Source: Hesseltinella vesiculosa (lineage: Eukaryota > Mucoromycota > Mucoromycetes > Mucorales > Cunninghamellaceae). Taken from it: 64,000 nucleotides of DNA. The notes under the pieces are model-generated. The model saw nothing but the letters and a program-made list of their open reading frames with translations. It searched no databases and was not told the origin of the DNA. Position numbers and translations under genes: made by a program. Of the stretch, positions 1,879-64,000 are shown in pieces. Location: assembly GCA_002104935.1 (NCBI GenBank), contig MCGT01000018.1:124001-188000 (forward strand). Reading direction: 5' to 3'. The stretch's first letter is position 1, and each line of letters starts with the position of its first letter.

Positions 1879-3855
1879 TTATACCAGTGCTTCCCGAACG
1901 CTGGGGCCTTCATAGGGCGTCACCCCGGCAGCGGACTTGTCCAACTCCAAGCCAAGTCGTTCCATTCGCTCCAATTCCAACTAGGAATAAAAAAATGAGG
2001 CACTGTTACTAATGATACGATAGCTTACCATCAAAGTTGCGAGCAGTTCAAAGACTTTGACCAAAAGATAACGTTGCTCCCATGAGACGGGCAGAGTTGC
2101 AGAGCGAAGCTGGACAAATGACCAGCGCTTGTTTTCCAAGATGCCAGTCGAGCAAAGGGTCAGTTGGTTCTTGATGACAAGGAGAGACATGACCTTGGAT
2201 TGCTTGAAGAGATCGAACGCGGCATCCTTACGCTGGCTTGCTTCGGCTTTCAGGACCATGGTGCTGCACTCGATCACCTTCAAGGTGTCTTCTTGGGCGT
2301 GCTTGACATTTTCTTCGAAGTTGCCGCTAACAAAAAATAGGGTAACTCTTTAGTTCTAGTCATGATGCGATTTCTCTCAAATTGGCTATATTTTGCTTAC
2401 CCTGATGACTCCACAAGAAGATCTTCCATGGTGGTCGAAGTATTCAGCGTTCCCAGGGCATCGATCTTGCGAATGACAGCGTTCTTGAGCGTATCATTTC
2501 TGTTCAGCACGATCAATTTGTTCGCATTGAGGTCTTTTTCACACCTAACAAGGAGCAAAGAAAAAAAGTTAGATATGAATGATTGTGTGAAGGTGAGGTG
2601 GGCAAGTGGGACTACCATCCAATCTTCACCAAGCCGGTGCATTTGTCCAAAGCCTTGAGATATGGAATTACAAACTCAACGAATGCCGTTCGCTCGTGCT
2701 TCACTTGAACAGAAGGAGCTTGGCAGATCATGTGGAAGTCAGTCAATGCATACTTGATTATTAAAGCAAACTCATGAGATCGGCGATTGCTTGTGGTGTC
2801 AAAATCCATGGACCAAAGAGCTTCTGCAAACCCTTCATAGCTCAATTCCAATGCATCGGTCAAGAAGGTGAATGTCCCGAGAACGTTGAGAGAATGATTC
2901 ATGCGTTGGTCCTTCAGGTTATCGGCAAAAAGGAGGTCCATGGCGGAGGATCCTGGGGACGCGCTGGAGCTGGTGCAAATCTCAACGTGATTGGTGATGG
3001 CATCCATATCAAGGCGGGGCACCTTTGGTCGATGGGGAGAATTTCCTAGATCAGCCAGTGCTTGGATAGAAAATTCTTTTGTACTATGCTTGACAAGAGC
3101 AGGGCTGCGTGGAGGAGATTCGGGGCAAGTGGACTGGATCAAGATTGCGAGAGAAAACGCGAAGGTGATGAGCGATACCGCAGCAACGGCGTTTTTTTTT
3201 TTTTTTGACCATCTCGCGCTTACCTCAGCACCTTCAAAGACTTCACGATCAGGATCAATTGGCTCTGGCCACTCGTCGTCATGCACCCTTTTTCTAATGA
3301 GGGCCATTCTACCATTATCAAGCAAAGAATATCAGTAACCGGGTTCTAGTTGTTTTAACCTAAAGTTTACCTTTGCACTGTATAGTTTTGTTCCATAAAC
3401 GTAGCGTTATTCGTGACAATGTTGGTGCCAGGGGTAGGGCTAGGAGTGCAGACACCTTCGTAAGGGATGGATGATCCAGTGGTTTGAGTAGACACACCTT
3501 GGTTGGCAGTGGGGAGATCATTTGCGACAGGGGTAGTTGCGAAGCATGGGTCGGCTTGTTCACGGACACCCTTCACATAAAAAAGTTAGTATTTATATTC
3601 TTGGCATCATTTAAGGTGATCTCAAGCACTTACTTTCCAATTAGACAATAGTTTTTTTGCAGCTTCTTTGACATGCTTCTTGAGATTGTCAATATCATTG
3701 ATATCCGTGAGCCGGCATTTGAGAGCGAGCAAAAAGTTTGCATGAGAAATCAGAGGGACTTGCTCCAGGACTACGTCGTAAACTTCCTTGACTTTCCACT
3801 TTTTACATGGCGTAGTTACCAGATACTTGAATATGATATGATCCTCTTCTCGCAT
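1879..3855 (-). CDS. Hypothetical protein, repeated family (paralogue of the gene at 7383-9162)
   Basis: Not a family I can name. Seven exons can be joined by consensus splice sites, from ATG at 3855 (MREEDHIIFKYL) to TAA at 1879-1881. The order is a small N-terminal domain rich in charged residues, a Ser/Thr/Pro-rich linker, then a helical region with ERTAFVEFVIPYLKAL, followed by WCEKDL, LLVESSG, KVIECSTMVLKAEAS and a C-terminus ending in VREALV. The gene at 7383-9162 shows the same order of landmarks (ERTPFMESLVPLFKA, WGEKSL, ILVESSG, FELIFCLA), so the two are distant paralogues. The intron between the EGAE and STCPES exons contains a long A-run and reads through without a stop, so automated calling may miss it. 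A partial copy lies at 5843-6335. It is convergent with SEC1 (210 bp apart). No catalytic motif is obvious and the function is unknown. Confidence 0.65.
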
Positions 3856-3859
3856 TCCA

Positions 3860-4500
3860 AAAAAATAAAAAAATAAAAAAAAGTGAAGAAAAGAGTCGCG
3901 ACCTCACTTCCCAGCGCCGCTTATTTTTTTTCTGCGTGGAAGCTTGTTTTTTTTCCCAACTTATTTTTCTTTTTGTTTTTGCATTATTCTTGGCAGAGCA
4001 TGTGTACTTTTTTCTCTAACGGTATAGCAATGATCATATCAGCAGCAATAGATTGACGTCATAGTATACCTTGTATTCTGCTGCGTGCGTGCGTTGACAA
4101 AGTGTGCAGCTCTGTTGCACAACCGTCCGTTTAAGCTCTCTATCTGGTGTCTGACACCGTGATAGAAACAGATGCCTGATTGTTATGATACTGGCTTGCT
4201 CTTCTGCTAGCCCTCTGTATTGTTGTACGTGGAACGAAAGGGGAAGCATTTCGGGTCCGTCCTTGGATGCGTCAGGGTCCGTCCTTGCCCCTTTTTGATA
4301 TGATCCTCTTGCCTCTGTGAAGGAGAAGAAAAAAGTTGCCTTGCCTTTGCCATTGGCCGATTCAGTAAATATTTTCTACAGACAATGACGACTCGGTTAC
4401 TCGCCCATCTTTTTTTTTCTTTAGTTGTTATGGTGCACTCTTGCTTTTGCTAATATCAAGAAGGCAATGGCTTGGCATCTCTTTTTTTTTTTTTTTTTTT
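3860..4500. repeat. Dispersed repeat R1, copy 1
   Basis: AT-rich start (A-runs, then CTTCCCAGCGCCGC and long T-runs), followed by GCAATGATCATATCAGCAGC, a block rich in GCGTGCGTGCG, and TGTCTGACACCGTGA. The same blocks recur at 4508-4935 (lacking the AT-rich start) and at 10060-10310. The start of this copy lies only a few bases upstream of the ATG of the gene at 1879-3855. It ends in a 20-nt T-run. No credible protein is encoded. It sits at the junction between the two halves of the local segmental duplication, so it may have mediated it. Confidence 0.7.
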
Positions 4501-58946: not shown

Positions 58947-59362
58947 ATGGCTTTCTGCTTTCAGTTACTCGTCGTGTTTGGTTTCCTCTTGTTTGCCGTC
59001 AGCGCGCAACTTGACGGGCAGTGCAGAACTTTGGGAATGGCCTGTGGCTCGGAGTCAGATGTAAACGGCCACAAACGAACAGAGAACTGTTGCAATGGTA
59101 TTGTTTTCTTAGTACATTTTTATCTTATTTTAGTCTACTAACTAAATATTGAATAGGCTACGCATGTAAGGGTGGATACTGTGCAATTACATCCAATTTG
59201 AAAGGTGATACACAAGCCTGCATCAACAAGATTCAGCCGAAATCGAATTCAAAGTGTGTCGCTGGCACAGTATCGGTCAGTCCTTTGAGTGGCATAGGAA
59301 CAGCTTGCTACTGTGGCTGCAATGAAATACTATCAAATAGCCAGCTGCATATGCGCTACTAA
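58947..59362 (+). CDS. Small secreted cysteine-rich protein
   Basis: Two exons, 58947-59097 and 59157-59362, rejoining as C-N-G-Y-A-C. The precursor is about 118 residues. A signal peptide (MAFCFQLLVVFGFLLFAVSA) is followed by a short mature chain with eleven Cys. The first six are arranged C-C-CC-C-C (QC, MAC, ENCCNG, YAC, GYC), as in cystine-knot (knottin-like) folds; the rest end in ACYCGC. No pro-region or membrane anchor. Small secreted Cys-rich proteins in fungi act in the cell wall, in antagonism or as effectors, but this one matches no family I recognise. Eleven Cys is an odd number, so one is free or the last intron or stop is misjudged. Confidence 0.7.
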
Positions 59363-59868
59363 GCGCACTAACATGATCCGCTTGCAGAAAGAATTTGTCG
59401 CATCTTTCTGTAAAGCATGTTATTTTTACCACCTTGGATTTATAGACCAAGCATGGTAAGGCATAGGGAGAGGCATGCGTGAAATAGACAGAATGATATG
59501 GATAGTCGCAACTTCTCCAATCTGGAGCATTTTTGTTTAACTGAGGATGACTCTGGGGCCTGAATTTTTTTTTTTTTCGTGGTTTGGTTTGCCAGGCAGT
59601 GTTAAGTTTTTATTTAAGAAGCACAGTAAAATGAGCAATAGAGATAGACAAAGAGTGCTACCTTTATCATTGATGGTACGCTACTTCATTTTATATTTCA
59701 AAAAGAAAGGTACGTAGTAAAAAAAGGGCTAAGGATGTGATTGGCGGTCATGCTCACTGGCATTGGCATTGGTTTGATCTTCCGCAACACGCGATTCTTT
59801 TTGTTTGTTTGTTTATCTAGGCTCTTCTATCTTTTTCTTTATTTCTGCTCATTTTCTATCTTTCCCTG
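59363..59868. other. Region between the secreted protein and Fanzor genes
   Basis: AT-rich with T-runs (59565-59577) and a pyrimidine-rich run before the ATG at 59869 (TTTCTTTATTTCTGCTCATT). No terminal inverted repeat matching the 3' side of the Fanzor gene was seen. Confidence 0.5.
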
Positions 59869-62800
59869 ATGCAATCGCTTCTTCAATCCGTCTACGTAAC
59901 TCTGTGCCACATCCCTGAAGAAGATTTCCGCCGGGCGTTGCCTGATCAGCTGGGCCAAGCTTGGATGACCACCGAACAATTCTACACTGTTTGGTCACAA
60001 GCAAAAGTCTATCGTCAAAGTAAGTCATCCATCACTTCCATCATGTCTTTTTCTTTACCCATCTTCGTAGGACGGGAAACTAGGCCCACGCCACAACGAC
60101 GTGCCCAACAACAGGAACAAAACGATCGCGCCGAGGGGAGACGGCTGCGCCAAGAAGATGAGCGAAATCCTGATGCTGTGGGACCGTGTGCCACATGCGG
60201 CCAAATGGGACACTGTTCGTCTGCCAGCCGCCTCTGTCCTTTCCATCGCACGAACAAGAAGGATTATATCAACGAGATGATGCCAGGTGGTGAGCGCTAC
60301 ACCATAAAAAAAAGCTTTGAAGATGCCGTCCGGCAGCCTTTCAAGATCGCTTTGAAGCGCAACATAGAATCGACCAGCGCCTGCAACAAGAACATCCTTT
60401 TCCGCCTCCAACTGTTTATCAACCATTTCGCTCTCACTCACCCGTCTGACTTTAAAAGCATCATGATCAGCCAGAACGGTCTCCTGTCCATCTCGCAGCT
60501 CATCTACCCCCGCAACCCGCGTCGACCAGGGATTACCAACGCTCACATCCTGCGAAGCCTTCCTCCCACCTTTCTGCCTCACTGGAACCAGTTTGTCCGC
60601 GACCACCCAAACATCGTGTACAACCCCAATGACCACCACGGCATGGATCCGCTCGACAATGCAGCCCTACTCATTCCTGCTGATGACCGCAGCCTTCACT
60701 TCCATCACCCGCATAAATTCTATGGAGGTACTTTTGGGCCATGTTTGTCAACGCTTGCCACCGCTTACTCCAATTGCTTGGTGATCGACTTTGAGAAAAA
60801 GGTCAAGAAGTTTATTCGATTCTCCTTTGCCATCACGGATGTCCAAGTAAGTTTTTTAAAGGGCGGTACCAAAAAAGGGAATGTGTTCTGACTTTTTTTT
60901 GTCTCTTTCAGATCCCTCATATTGACCAGCAGGTGGATGACATCTACACAAACTTCGCAGAAAGACCCTCCCACCCTCAATCAGGGGTCACATCTGGATC
61001 GGCCACAAACAGTGTCCCTGGCGTGTCTGCCGAAGAAGCGGCCATTGCCAGTGTGAAGGCGAAAACACTGGCCTTGAAACCCCACTACGTTGGCAAATTG
61101 ACGTCGACAACCCTGTCCCGAAACCCCAGCAGTGCCTTGCTTGTCTACATCAACATCAACAAGCACTACGAGCAATACAAGTGCCAGCCCAATGCCAACC
61201 CTAAAAAATGCCCGAAGCTTACCATCCTTCCTGAGCCCCACTTTGGTCGCCGATTCATCCCCATTTTATCCGACACGATCAAATATCTAGCCGAATGCGA
61301 TGCTCCTGGTAACGCTGTGGCTACCATTGGCAATGAAACAAACAACGACAACACTGGTGAATGCGACGCCGCTTTCATCCGTGCCTTGCCCATGTTTTTC
61401 AAGGTGTTCCACATGGAAAAGTTTGACTTTGGCTGGCCTGGGTACGGGAGGTAAGTTTCGCAGACACCAAAAAAAAAAAAAAAAAAGAACAGCTTCCAAC
61501 TTTTTTCTTCTTCTTCTTCTCACCTAGTGTCCAGGACATGCTTGAGGGTATACTATACAACCGTCCACTGTTTGCTTGCCACATTTGGTGTGATGGCGTT
61601 TCGTGCTGCTTTGAATTTATTCGTTTGCCAACCACGCATCGCCCAACGATGAAGCTGCCCAGCCTGGACCACTGGGATACCGAACTGGTAGAACGCTTCG
61701 ACATGGTCGCCGTCGATCCAGGCCGCCGTGCCATCGTCACCGGAAGCTATGGCACACCTTATCCACTTTCTATGCTCCCTGAAACCCGGGATGACGAAGA
61801 CTCTGCAGGTGAAGGTGAACCCGATAACGATAATGACGAAGAACAAATGGCTATCGACACCCCATGTCCTATTCGTACTGCTCAGCCTGCACATCAACAT
61901 CAGGACTTTGACAACGCCACTGGTAGCACAGATATGGAACAAGGAAATCTCTCTATGCCTATGATTGACGATGCCGATCCTACCACCCCGATCCCCCAGT
62001 CTCACCATCTGCCTTACCGAGTCATCAAAGTTTCTGCAAAGGAATACCGCTCGCAATGTGGAACGCAGCGACGAATTCAACAATTGGAACGACGCAAGGT
62101 TTCCACGACATACTCTTTCCGAGGTCAGCAATTACCGTTCCATCAGCTGGAGGCTGCCATCCCTTCCCACCGAAGCACCAGCGCCTCCGAATATGCCATC
62201 CGAATCCAATACCTGCTCGATCGTCTCCCGCTCTTCTTCGACTTTTACGGCCTTCAGCATTCCATCGACCGCTTCAATGCTTACAGAGGGCGCCAGCGGG
62301 GTGTTGCATACGTTGCCAGTGTTCTTGCTGGACTGTCCAAGAAGTATGTCAAGTCCCAGCGCAATGTGCGTGGCCACCGCAAACGTACCCACCGCAATCG
62401 GCGCAAGCGTCAGAAGAAAGCTCGGAAGAAAAAGGCCTTCAAGATCAGCAATGCCAAGAAGGCGATGGTGGAACACCTTGCCACAATGGATATTGCTATA
62501 AAGAAGATCGAGGATTTAGTGAACTGCTGTGCTGGCTCGACATTACCTGGGGCGATGGATACTTTGGTTGCAACATTGCAAACCATGCGCACCCAACGCG
62601 ACCTGGACCATGACATCCGCTTTACTCTGATCAGCCAAATGGAAGAAAAGAGGCAAGTCATCACGGCTTTCAGGAGGTCCACCAGGTGGTGCTGATTTTT
62701 TTTTTCCAGTGGTAGACCTGCGCCACCAATGAAACCAACCACACGAATGCGCCATGGCGTGACAAAATACCCCAGCCAAAGAATTCCATTGATCCTCTTT

Positions 62801-63230
62801 GGTGATGGCCTCAAGGGCCGGAAGGTCGCCACCCCTTTGAAAAAGCAACTTCCTGGTTCGTCCTCCCTGGTGTTCAACCAATTGGAAGACCGGCAACGAC
62901 AGGGCAAGCTTTCTGTTATCTCGCTAAATGAGTTCAAAACAAGCAAGGTGAGTAAAAAAAAAAAAAGAGGTGTGTCAATAGCAACGAGGCGACTCATTCT
63001 TTTCTTCAACACAGCTCTGCTCCATGTGCCATGGCCCAACGAAGAGCCCAGCCATGAATGGTAGCAAGGTGTATGGGCTTTTGCGCTGCAGTTCTTGTAA
63101 TGTCACCTTTGACCGGGATGTGATGGCGGCCTGCAACATGGTGTCTATTGGCCAGCACTTTTTCCAACACAAGCAACGCCCCCTGGCCTTTTGCCCACGC
63201 CGACGGCCTCCAACCTCTCCTACCGCTTAG
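59869..63230 (+). CDS. Fanzor: eukaryotic TnpB-like RNA-guided nuclease family protein
   Basis: Fanzors are eukaryotic relatives of transposon TnpB and Cas12 that cut DNA guided by an omega RNA. Six exons fit in phase: 59869-60019, 60071-60846, 60912-61450, 61528-62652, 62710-62947 and 63015-63230, giving about 1014 residues. An N-terminal zinc knuckle-like CATCGQMGHCSSASRLCPFH comes first, then a long helical recognition region. RuvC-I is FDMVAVDPGRRAIVTG (catalytic Asp); a roughly 90-residue acidic linker follows; a basic helical stretch (GHRKRTHRNRRKRQKK) lies before RuvC-II, with IPLILFGDG and Glu in SLNEFKTSKLCSMC; the zinc ribbon is C-x2-C...C-x2-C (CSMC, LRCSSC); RuvC-III is FDRDVMAACNM. 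So D, E and D are all present. The Glu just before TSK..C fits the rearranged site described for Fanzor. Intron 4 has a GC donor; intron 1 is 51 nt and could be retained in frame. Confidence 0.85.
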
Positions 63231-63400
63231 TTTTCATATTTATTCACCAAAGCAACCCTGCAAAAGGGGTTACCGTCTGCTCTGGCAAGAACGTGTTTAA
63301 TGCTTTTATCCGGTAACTGGTGCTTTTAGCCAACACTTAACACACGTTCTGATTGGTAACGGAGTTTTCTTTTTTTCCATAGTGGAAGGCAACGGAAAAG
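63231..63400 (+). ncRNA. Candidate omega RNA region downstream of Fanzor
   Basis: Fanzor and TnpB guide RNAs come from the 3' end of the gene and its flank. Here the flank is rich in structure: AACCC/GGGTT stem (63254-63271), a 13-14 bp near-perfect inverted repeat AGAACGTGTTTAA (63288-63300) against TTAACACACGTTCT (63337-63350), a direct repeat TGCTTTTA-(T/G)-CC in its loop, and three copies of GTTACC/GGTAAC (about 63269, 63312 and 63356). These could form a compact scaffold. Ends are not defined and transcription is unproven. Confidence 0.3.
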
Positions 63401-63533
63401 GGGGTGCAAGTCCTTTTTTGTCTCTTTCCCTTTTCTCCACCTTTTCTTTTTTGGCAATTGACATCCTTCATGGTGACTGTTTGAGTCATCCTATTCCTTG
63501 ATTGATTCTCATCCGTTCCTCGCTTTTTATGCA

Positions 63534-64000
63534 ATGAAAGGTGGAGGACTTCCCAATGAGCTGCTACTCCACATCATCAGCTTTGTTCCTCGACGTTCTC
63601 GCTCGGTGTTTTTGCTGGTCAGCCGCTATACCAACCAACAATGCGGACCGGTTTACGAACGTACAAATTTCCCTGATGGATTGACCATGAATGAGGTGCT
63701 TGAGTTTTGCCAACGGCATGGCAAGTCTCTCCGCACTGTGAAGCTGCCTCTGGGCAAACGGTTTTCCGACACGTTTTATCAGCTGCTGTTCCGCCTGTGC
63801 CCTTGCCTCGGTTTCTTGCAGGCCAGCCTGACGGCCAAGCAGCTTGCCCGTCTCTTACTCCAAAAACGATATCCATCGACCAGCTTTCTGTTAACCCATT
63901 GTCCATCAACGGAAGCCGACGTGGAGGTGCTGATGGACACCAGCCAAGATCACTACCATGTACTGGAGGTGCCATGCTGCTGTTCGTCCTTTTTCATATT
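63534..64000 (+). CDS. F-box protein, 5' part
   Basis: F-box proteins are the substrate receptors of SCF ubiquitin ligases. Starting at ATG 63534 the protein reads MKGGGLPNELLLHIISFVPR then RSRSVFLLVSRYTNQQCGPV, a good F-box (LP.ELL..I...). Leu/Cys-rich sequence typical of degenerate leucine-rich repeats follows (TVKLPLGKRFSDTFYQLLFR, LTAKQLARLLL). The frame is open to the window edge. An upstream ATG at 63529 is out of frame and ends at once. Target unknown; Mucoromycetes have many such F-box/LRR genes. Confidence 0.75.
   Translation, partial: MKGGGLPNELLLHIISFVPRRSRSVFLLVSRYTNQQCGPVYERTNFPDGLTMNEVLEFCQRHGKSLRTVKLPLGKRFSDTFYQLLFRLCPCLGFLQASLTAKQLARLLLQKRYPSTSFLLTHCPSTEADVEVLMDTSQDHYHVLEVPCCCSSFFI

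Follow-up and report, generated by a model that had tools for sequence, protein, structure and literature searches.

A probable functional Fanzor1 nuclease as the sole gene of a multi-copy transposon in the mucoralean fungus Hesseltinella vesiculosa

Fanzors are TnpB-like eukaryotic relatives of the CRISPR nucleases, believed to be directed by a guide RNA to the DNA sites that they cut. By what route elements with a Fanzor as their sole gene move, and how they benefit from it, is an open question in the field. Spu-1 of Spizellomyces punctatus, which encodes SpuFz1, is described as an element of many copies, in most of which the Fanzor is the sole gene between inverted repeats; ghost copies keep the right-end RNA region, and the published descriptions report no transposase with the same ends (PMC10432273, PMC3627910). 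The accounts of SpuFz1 give a protein of 633 amino acids from a single open reading frame, repeats of 30–33 bp and a TA duplication. Among mucoralean fungi, Bao and Jurka (2013) described the Fanzor1 elements ROr-4, PBl-3, MCi-2, MCi-4 and MCi-5; by their account ROr-4, PBl-3 and MCi-4 have no transposase of their own, MCi-2 is unclassified, with 11 copies, fuzzy 5' ends and 11–12 bp duplications with a fixed start, and the set has either MuDR-like repeats with 9-bp duplications or, in MCi-2 and MCi-5, no recognisable repeats (PMC3627910). Another mucoralean Fanzor1, PpFz1 of Parasitella parasitica, is described as carrying an insertion of about 100 residues in RuvC, the FRI domain, which binds cyclophilin (PMC11423790). 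Here we analyse a Fanzor1 gene found in a 64,000-nucleotide stretch (the window) of the genome of Hesseltinella vesiculosa, a fungus of the same order. We read it as the sole gene of a non-autonomous transposon of about 4.05 kb, which has spread through the genome in 23 or more near-full-length copies and in further fragments, and whose persistence would be aided by the RNA-guided cutting set out below; we put the probability of this reading, mechanism included, at roughly 0.85.

The window gene runs from an ATG at 59869 to a stop at 63228–63230 and is read without stops through six in-phase exons into 1,014 residues; an earlier reading made from the sequence only had proposed the same coordinates, strand and exon number, and these hold. 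Its introns (60020–60070, 60847–60911, 61451–61527, 62653–62709 and 62948–63014) measure 51, 65, 77, 57 and 67 nt, the fourth being of the GC-AG type. For intron 4 there is a choice of two acceptors, both in frame and separated by 6 nt (62653–62715 region), and since the downstream one is the only AG in most sister copies, a protein of 1,012 residues is equally possible. The predicted joining of the exons is supported by the sequence and by conservation across the copies.

Yoon et al. gave as the fingerprint of Fanzor a RuvC-I DPG motif together with a glutamate six residues ahead of the zinc ribbon (PMC10711439). The window protein has both (D552-P-G; E938, then six residues, then C945), as well as a C4 ribbon (C945, C948, C968 and C971) and R977-D978 of RuvC-III within FDRD, which bears out the intact acidic RuvC residues and zinc ribbon claimed by the sequence-only reading. 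When six Fanzor sequences of the same genome are aligned, D552, E938, D978 and the four cysteines of the ribbon do not vary, and the fingerprint patterns are kept in 11 of the 12 intact copies of the element, the exception being L031, where the glutamate and zinc-module patterns fail. The sole Pfam match of the protein is PF07282, the zinc ribbon of TnpB/Cas12f (E 1.8e-9; 38.1 bits, cut-off 26.3), and ribbon and RuvC-III are thus held in common with bacterial TnpB and Cas12f. Unlike bacterial TnpB, however, the window protein has its glutamate in the alternative position and its gene has introns, and it scores only 20.1 bits against NCBIfam guided_TnpB, for which the cut-off is 100.

A profile built from the window protein and five relatives matched 34 sequences of the PDB. 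SpuFz1 (PDB 8gkh) ranked first (E 1.3e-9), with the same catalytic residues, and GtFz1 seventh (E 1.7e-5); the ranks between them are taken by two entries of LaTranC, the TnpB-like L79, a Cas12m and an entry under the name Transposase, all five with their best stretches in the C-terminal third of the profile. The sequence-only reading had stated that a profile search placing the protein outside the Fanzor/TnpB clade would refute the assignment; the search placed it inside. Counted by hand on the alignment, E938 lies opposite position 935 of the SpuFz1 fusion chain and D978 opposite position 1000, and a single offset of 394 converts these to E541 and D606, given by Saito et al. as active-site residues of SpuFz1 (PMC10432273). 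Searched against 5.8 billion proteins, the full-length protein gave 6697 candidates, none of them at E ≤ 0.001, while profile A2 matched 7 proteins of the protein collection, two of them named Hesseltinella vesiculosa. The window gene is a real, probably functional Fanzor1 carried by a multi-copy transposon. Against SpuFz1, the window family stands out by its 1,014 residues, six exons, 12-bp repeats, GA-containing duplications of variable length, an extra zinc module and inserts in RuvC; from the mucoralean elements it is set apart, by their descriptions, by its CACTATGG repeats and YGA targets. The insert at residues 771–870, proline-rich at its end by eye, is similar in size to the FRI insertion described for PpFz1, and no chain named Parasitella is among the 34 PDB matches of the six-sequence profile.

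The extra zinc module, C90-X2-C93-X4-H98-X7-C106-X2-H109, contains the knuckle-like CX2CX4HX7C motif that the sequence-only reading had pointed out (C90, C93, H98 and C106). Most of it lies in 60132–60231, the least diverged of 41 100-bp windows along the element; synonymous divergence over the first 310 codons is also low (pS, the proportion of synonymous differences, 0.05–0.085, below most later segments), and selection on the protein therefore accounts for only a part of the low raw divergence in this region. The module is also kept in a divergent relative, L040, and a second Fanzor family, only 20–25% identical to the first, carries it as C-X2-C-X28-H-X7-C-X2-H. The retroviral type of CCHC knuckle has the form CX2CX4HX4C. 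The window module is not this textbook knuckle, its last spacing being X7 and its match to Pfam zf-CCHC (E 0.4) staying under the cut-off; of the other two N-termini in the alignment, one reaches zf-CCHC_6 at 4.3e-4. No PDB sequence was matched by a profile built on the N-terminal region, and 'Fanzor' was not found paired with 'zinc knuckle' or 'CCHC' in the openly licensed papers searched. The acidic linker after RuvC-I, also noted from the sequence at the outset, is real, with 20 D/E against 2 K/R in residues 571–640; it behaves as a spacer under loose constraint, in contrast to the constrained zinc module. The second multi-copy Fanzor family (L003–L006 and L008; G000 C2, C12, C13, C67 and C1) is 97–99% identical over about 2 kb, and in four of five copies it ends in TTTTTGGAAATACAG followed by TA, reminiscent of the insertion at TA seen in mariner-type elements.

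The genome holds 63 matches to the element, at least 23 of which are near-full-length copies, 89–100% identical (all copy counts, including those of zinc-ribbon matches and 3'-strip places, are lower bounds). The least diverged pair differs by 0.7%, and the closest sister of the window copy by 1.8% (98.2% identity). The sequence-only reading had left it undecided whether the gene was mobile or domesticated; with at least 23 dispersed near-full-length copies this is resolved towards mobile. Of the 22 other copies, 21 cease to resemble the window copy at 63386–63391 and the remaining one at 63397, and the right end, TTTTTTCCATAGTGGA, is exact in 18 of 23 copies with one change in four more. On the left, the window copy breaks off at 59332, beyond which the other copies share further sequence: 18 of 21 match L010 by BLAST, and L027, L031 and L032 share shorter stretches by eye. 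The full left repeat CACTATGGAAAA, kept in 8 of the 22 other copies, is the inverse of the right end TTTTCCATAGTG. In the window copy the right end CCATAGTGGA is present at 63377–63386 but 39 bp of the left terminus are missing, and for this reason the earlier reader saw no terminal repeats: that statement holds for the window copy only and fails for the family, whose sister copies have inverted repeats. Because its left terminus is lost, the window copy is probably immobile, yet it would still be able to make protein and guide RNA. In another copy, L033, the left terminus is tandemly duplicated ahead of the element, a further sign of irregular joining at this end.

Between the stop codon and the right end lies a strip, beginning at 63246, that is conserved beyond the family, L040 included. 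It occurs in at least 40 places genome-wide, namely the 23 full copies and 17 others; two of these others that were inspected, L036 (which joins query positions 1–567 to 3755–4077) and L065 (about 0.5 kb), are gene-less derivatives that keep both ends of the element and resemble the ghost elements described in S. punctatus (PMC10432273). After removal of fragments and near-identical copies, the RNAalifold consensus of 14 sequences has 24 pairs; 93.8% of cells pair, and seven pairs show changes on both sides against 2.3 in shuffled alignments, none of 500 of which reaches seven. This covariation makes the strip a candidate omega RNA. An Rfam scan of the window at the gathering threshold gave no match; an RNA model was built from 12 sequences, and a search with model R1 for the same RNA in the second family gave no hit up to E 1 among L001–L003, L005, L007, L008 and L061. 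L040 itself (G000:C1:1650300-1656300) is 41–54% identical to the window protein by exon, has the conserved 3' RNA region, and ends on the right in CCCTAGTG followed by CA, compared with CCATAGTG followed by GA in the window family.

Target sites could be read from the 22 other copies, the window copy being left out for want of a left end. In 21 of them the right repeat is followed by the dinucleotide GA, and in the exception by GG. A GGAAA anchor near the left end is absent in 6 of the 22; among the 16 anchored left ends, 11 have GA exactly 10 nt before the anchor, and all 11 read YGA (seven with T and four with C before the GA; background 0.51). The right end is thus precise and the left end irregular across the copies, some of which show target duplications. 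The target-adjacent motif (TAM) of SpuFz1 is given as CATA, which we read as the conserved CA followed by the duplicated TA (PMC10432273, PMC3627910). The same logic, applied to the present family, predicts that its TAM should be of the YGA type.

In the mechanism proposed here, processing of the 3' strip would yield an omega RNA, with its guide taken from the DNA that adjoins the element on the right. The ribonucleoprotein would then cut the matching empty site beside a YGA motif, and repair from the occupied allele would restore or copy the element, thereby aiding its persistence, while transposition itself would probably be carried out in trans by a separate enzyme. Several observations weigh against this reading. 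The spacing from the catalytic aspartate to the zinc ribbon is, owing to the inserts, beyond the ranges of both published patterns, D-X(125,275)-[TS][TS]XX-C4-X(5,50)-RD and DPGx(120-160)E...CxxCx(12,18)CxxC: D552 and E938 are 386 residues apart and the CxxC-CxxC gap is 19, with every residue present in order; we take these as ranges for searching and not as functional limits. In five of the 16 anchored left ends, GA is missing from the fixed position. The RNA of the window copy, folded alone, does no better than shuffles (z 0.21), and the omega-RNA alignment took in only 14 of the 37 extracted 3' regions. Finally, searches by end sequence brought up no partner transposon, transposase families not having been searched by profile. 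With up to one mismatch allowed, the right-end 16-mer gave 33 matches, of which 26 lie in family copies, fragments or a ghost and 7 elsewhere (2 + 4 for the reversed pattern used as control); the left-repeat pattern gave 45, two of them outside the listed copies (C34:392220 and C85:260221, the latter bearing the 3' strip), and the two loci with left-end similarity only, L059 and L060, had no protein match.

By which enzyme the family would move is answered differently by two alternatives. CACTA/CMC transposons have ends that begin with CACTA, duplications of 3–4 bp and a cognate transposase. The present family could be a DDE-type cut-and-paste transposon of this kind, moved in trans, whose 4-bp GANN duplications were later blurred by recombination and end erosion, and three copies (L016, L018 and L019) do combine intact CACTATGG repeats with matching GANN on both sides; yet L010 and L011, with the same intact repeat, mismatch within these four bases, four further copies match over longer stretches, and no partner element was seen in the searches by end sequence; we put the odds of this explanation somewhat below even. 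The longer matches are found in L015, L024, L027 and L028 (4 of 22), in which the left and right flanks agree over 10–12 bp anchored at GA (in L015 the copy that abuts the element measures 8 bp), whereas matches of at least 8 arose in 0 of 2,000 permutations. Together with the nearly invariant right and variable left end, they would fit a mode of movement in which duplications are long or vary in length and the left end is imprecise, whether MuDR-like, a Crypton-like tyrosine recombinase or one-ended transposition. MCi-2, with its duplications of 11–12 bp and fuzzy 5' ends, and CRe-1, CRe-2 and CRe-3 of Chlamydomonas, with 5' truncations and duplications of 7–19 bp, are described in such terms (PMC3627910). 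The family has, on the other hand, short terminal inverted repeats that are absent from MCi-2, and 18 of its 22 copies show no match of at least 8; such a mechanism is possible, at odds somewhat below even. Sharing features with several described Fanzor elements and matching none, the family is left open as to transposon class.

Is the nuclease still at work? Under a transferred exon model, in which splice sites were not required, frames are intact in 12 of the 23 copies and broken in 11 (L031, counted as intact, has an AT donor in intron 2). For the 66 pairs among the 12 intact copies, the median ratio of nonsynonymous to synonymous substitution rates (dN/dS; Nei-Gojobori script) is 0.26, and the window copy gives 0.16–0.34 against each of the others; the uncorrected ratio pN/pS is 0.27 over 55 pairs of 11 copies, L031 being excluded here and in the segments. 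By segment it is lowest in residues 641–770 (0.14), RuvC-I (0.18), and the surroundings of the zinc module (0.19), 0.23 in RuvC-II/III, and highest in the two linkers, namely the acidic one (0.53) and the basic insert (0.46). The noncoding ends diverge by 3.3% and 4.1%, and introns 2 and 3 by more, 11.4% and 8.3%. The Fanzor protein is under purifying selection. A decaying relic, a family once active in which no copy now makes a working nuclease and intact frames are merely left over, would fit the 11 broken copies, the many eroded left ends and the closest pair's difference of 0.7%, which leaves no identical, brand-new pair; the low dN/dS among intact copies, the distribution of constraint over the protein and the fingerprint retained in 11 of the 12 make it unlikely.

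More speculative, and in our estimate carrying only a small chance, is an undescribed class of Fanzor-only transposon with its right end and guide RNA both fixed, in which a YGA motif sets the choice of target and doubles as TAM, break repair, in place of a conventional transposase, would rewrite the left end at every insertion, and the zinc module would help to hold the element ends. IS607 elements insert through a serine recombinase with a dinucleotide crossover and without longer duplications. An IS607-like insertion at GA would account for the GA that 21 of 22 copies have after their right end and that 11 of the 16 anchored ones have at a fixed distance from their left end, but it is at odds with the 10–12 bp matches of four copies, the inverted repeats and the variable stretch between GA and the left end, and is very improbable. 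Yoon et al., as their text has it, found no Fanzor1 within IS607 elements (PMC10711439), and the present element, multi-copy and with inverted repeats, agrees with the carriage of Fanzor1 by other eukaryotic transposons. That the window gene has been domesticated, retained at its place because it serves the host and detached from any mobile family, is least probable of all and hardly credible: the copy has lost its left end and kept its frame, but there are 22 other near-full-length copies, 12 of 23 frames are intact, its dN/dS is 0.16–0.34, its closest sister is 98.2% identical and nothing found marks it as special, and a domesticated single gene is ruled out by copy number. The preferred reading is that of a Fanzor1 transposon family, with the features of the window copy as in Table 1.

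Table 1. Positions of the element, its gene and their parts in the window
Feature	Position	Strand	Remark
Window copy of the Fanzor element, 39 bp of left terminus missing	59332..63386	+	Abrupt ends of similarity against 22 other copies
Left noncoding region	59332..59868	+	3.3% mean pairwise divergence (23 copies)
Fanzor1 gene (predicted exons)	59869-60019, 60071-60846, 60912-61450, 61528-62652, 62710-62947, 63015-63230	+	1,014 residues
N-terminal zinc module C90-X2-C93-X4-H98-X7-C106-X2-H109	60187..60246	+	
RuvC-I DPG motif, catalytic D552	61715..61723	+	
Acidic linker, residues 571-640	61772..61981	+	Weak constraint (pN/pS 0.53)
Basic insert, residues 771-870	62372..62728	+	24 K/R and 10 D/E; between RuvC-I and RuvC-II; split by intron 4
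Alternative catalytic glutamate E938	62930..62932	+	Aligned with SpuFz1 E541
C4 zinc ribbon C945, C948, C968, C971 and RuvC-III D978	63018..63119	+	D978 aligned with SpuFz1 D606
Candidate omega RNA (guide-RNA scaffold)	63246..63386	+	Conserved structured 3' noncoding region to the right end
Right terminal inverted repeat CCATAGTG	63377..63384	+	
GA adjoining the right end	63385..63386	+	As in 21 of 22 other copies; common to target duplications
Predicted guide segment, right flank	63387..63406	+	By analogy with characterised Fanzors, as described (PMC10432273)

The element has neighbours on both sides. At 58947–59362 lies a two-exon gene for a small, secreted-looking, cysteine-rich protein, the last residues and stop of which fall within the Fanzor element (from 59332); its paralogues on other contigs, at 33–58% identity, did not settle where it originally ended. 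Just right of the element, an open frame at 63537–64000 resembles, by eye, the start of an F-box-type protein. The genome as a whole (27 Mb) has at least 46 matches to the TnpB/Fanzor zinc ribbon at E ≤ 0.001, and several Fanzor families coexist in it; 'Fanzor' was not found together with 'Hesseltinella' in the openly licensed papers searched.

Fanzor1 is already known, mucoralean fungi included, and what is special here is the conserved zinc module and the irregular left-end insertion with YGA. A zinc module shared by two Fanzor families is a specific and testable addition to the architecture of the protein. A single family of at least 23 copies brings together versions with intact and with broken frames, copies that have lost the gene but retain the RNA region, a predicted YGA TAM and readable junctions, and it is because the family offers all of these at once that the link between insertion site, TAM and guide becomes directly testable.

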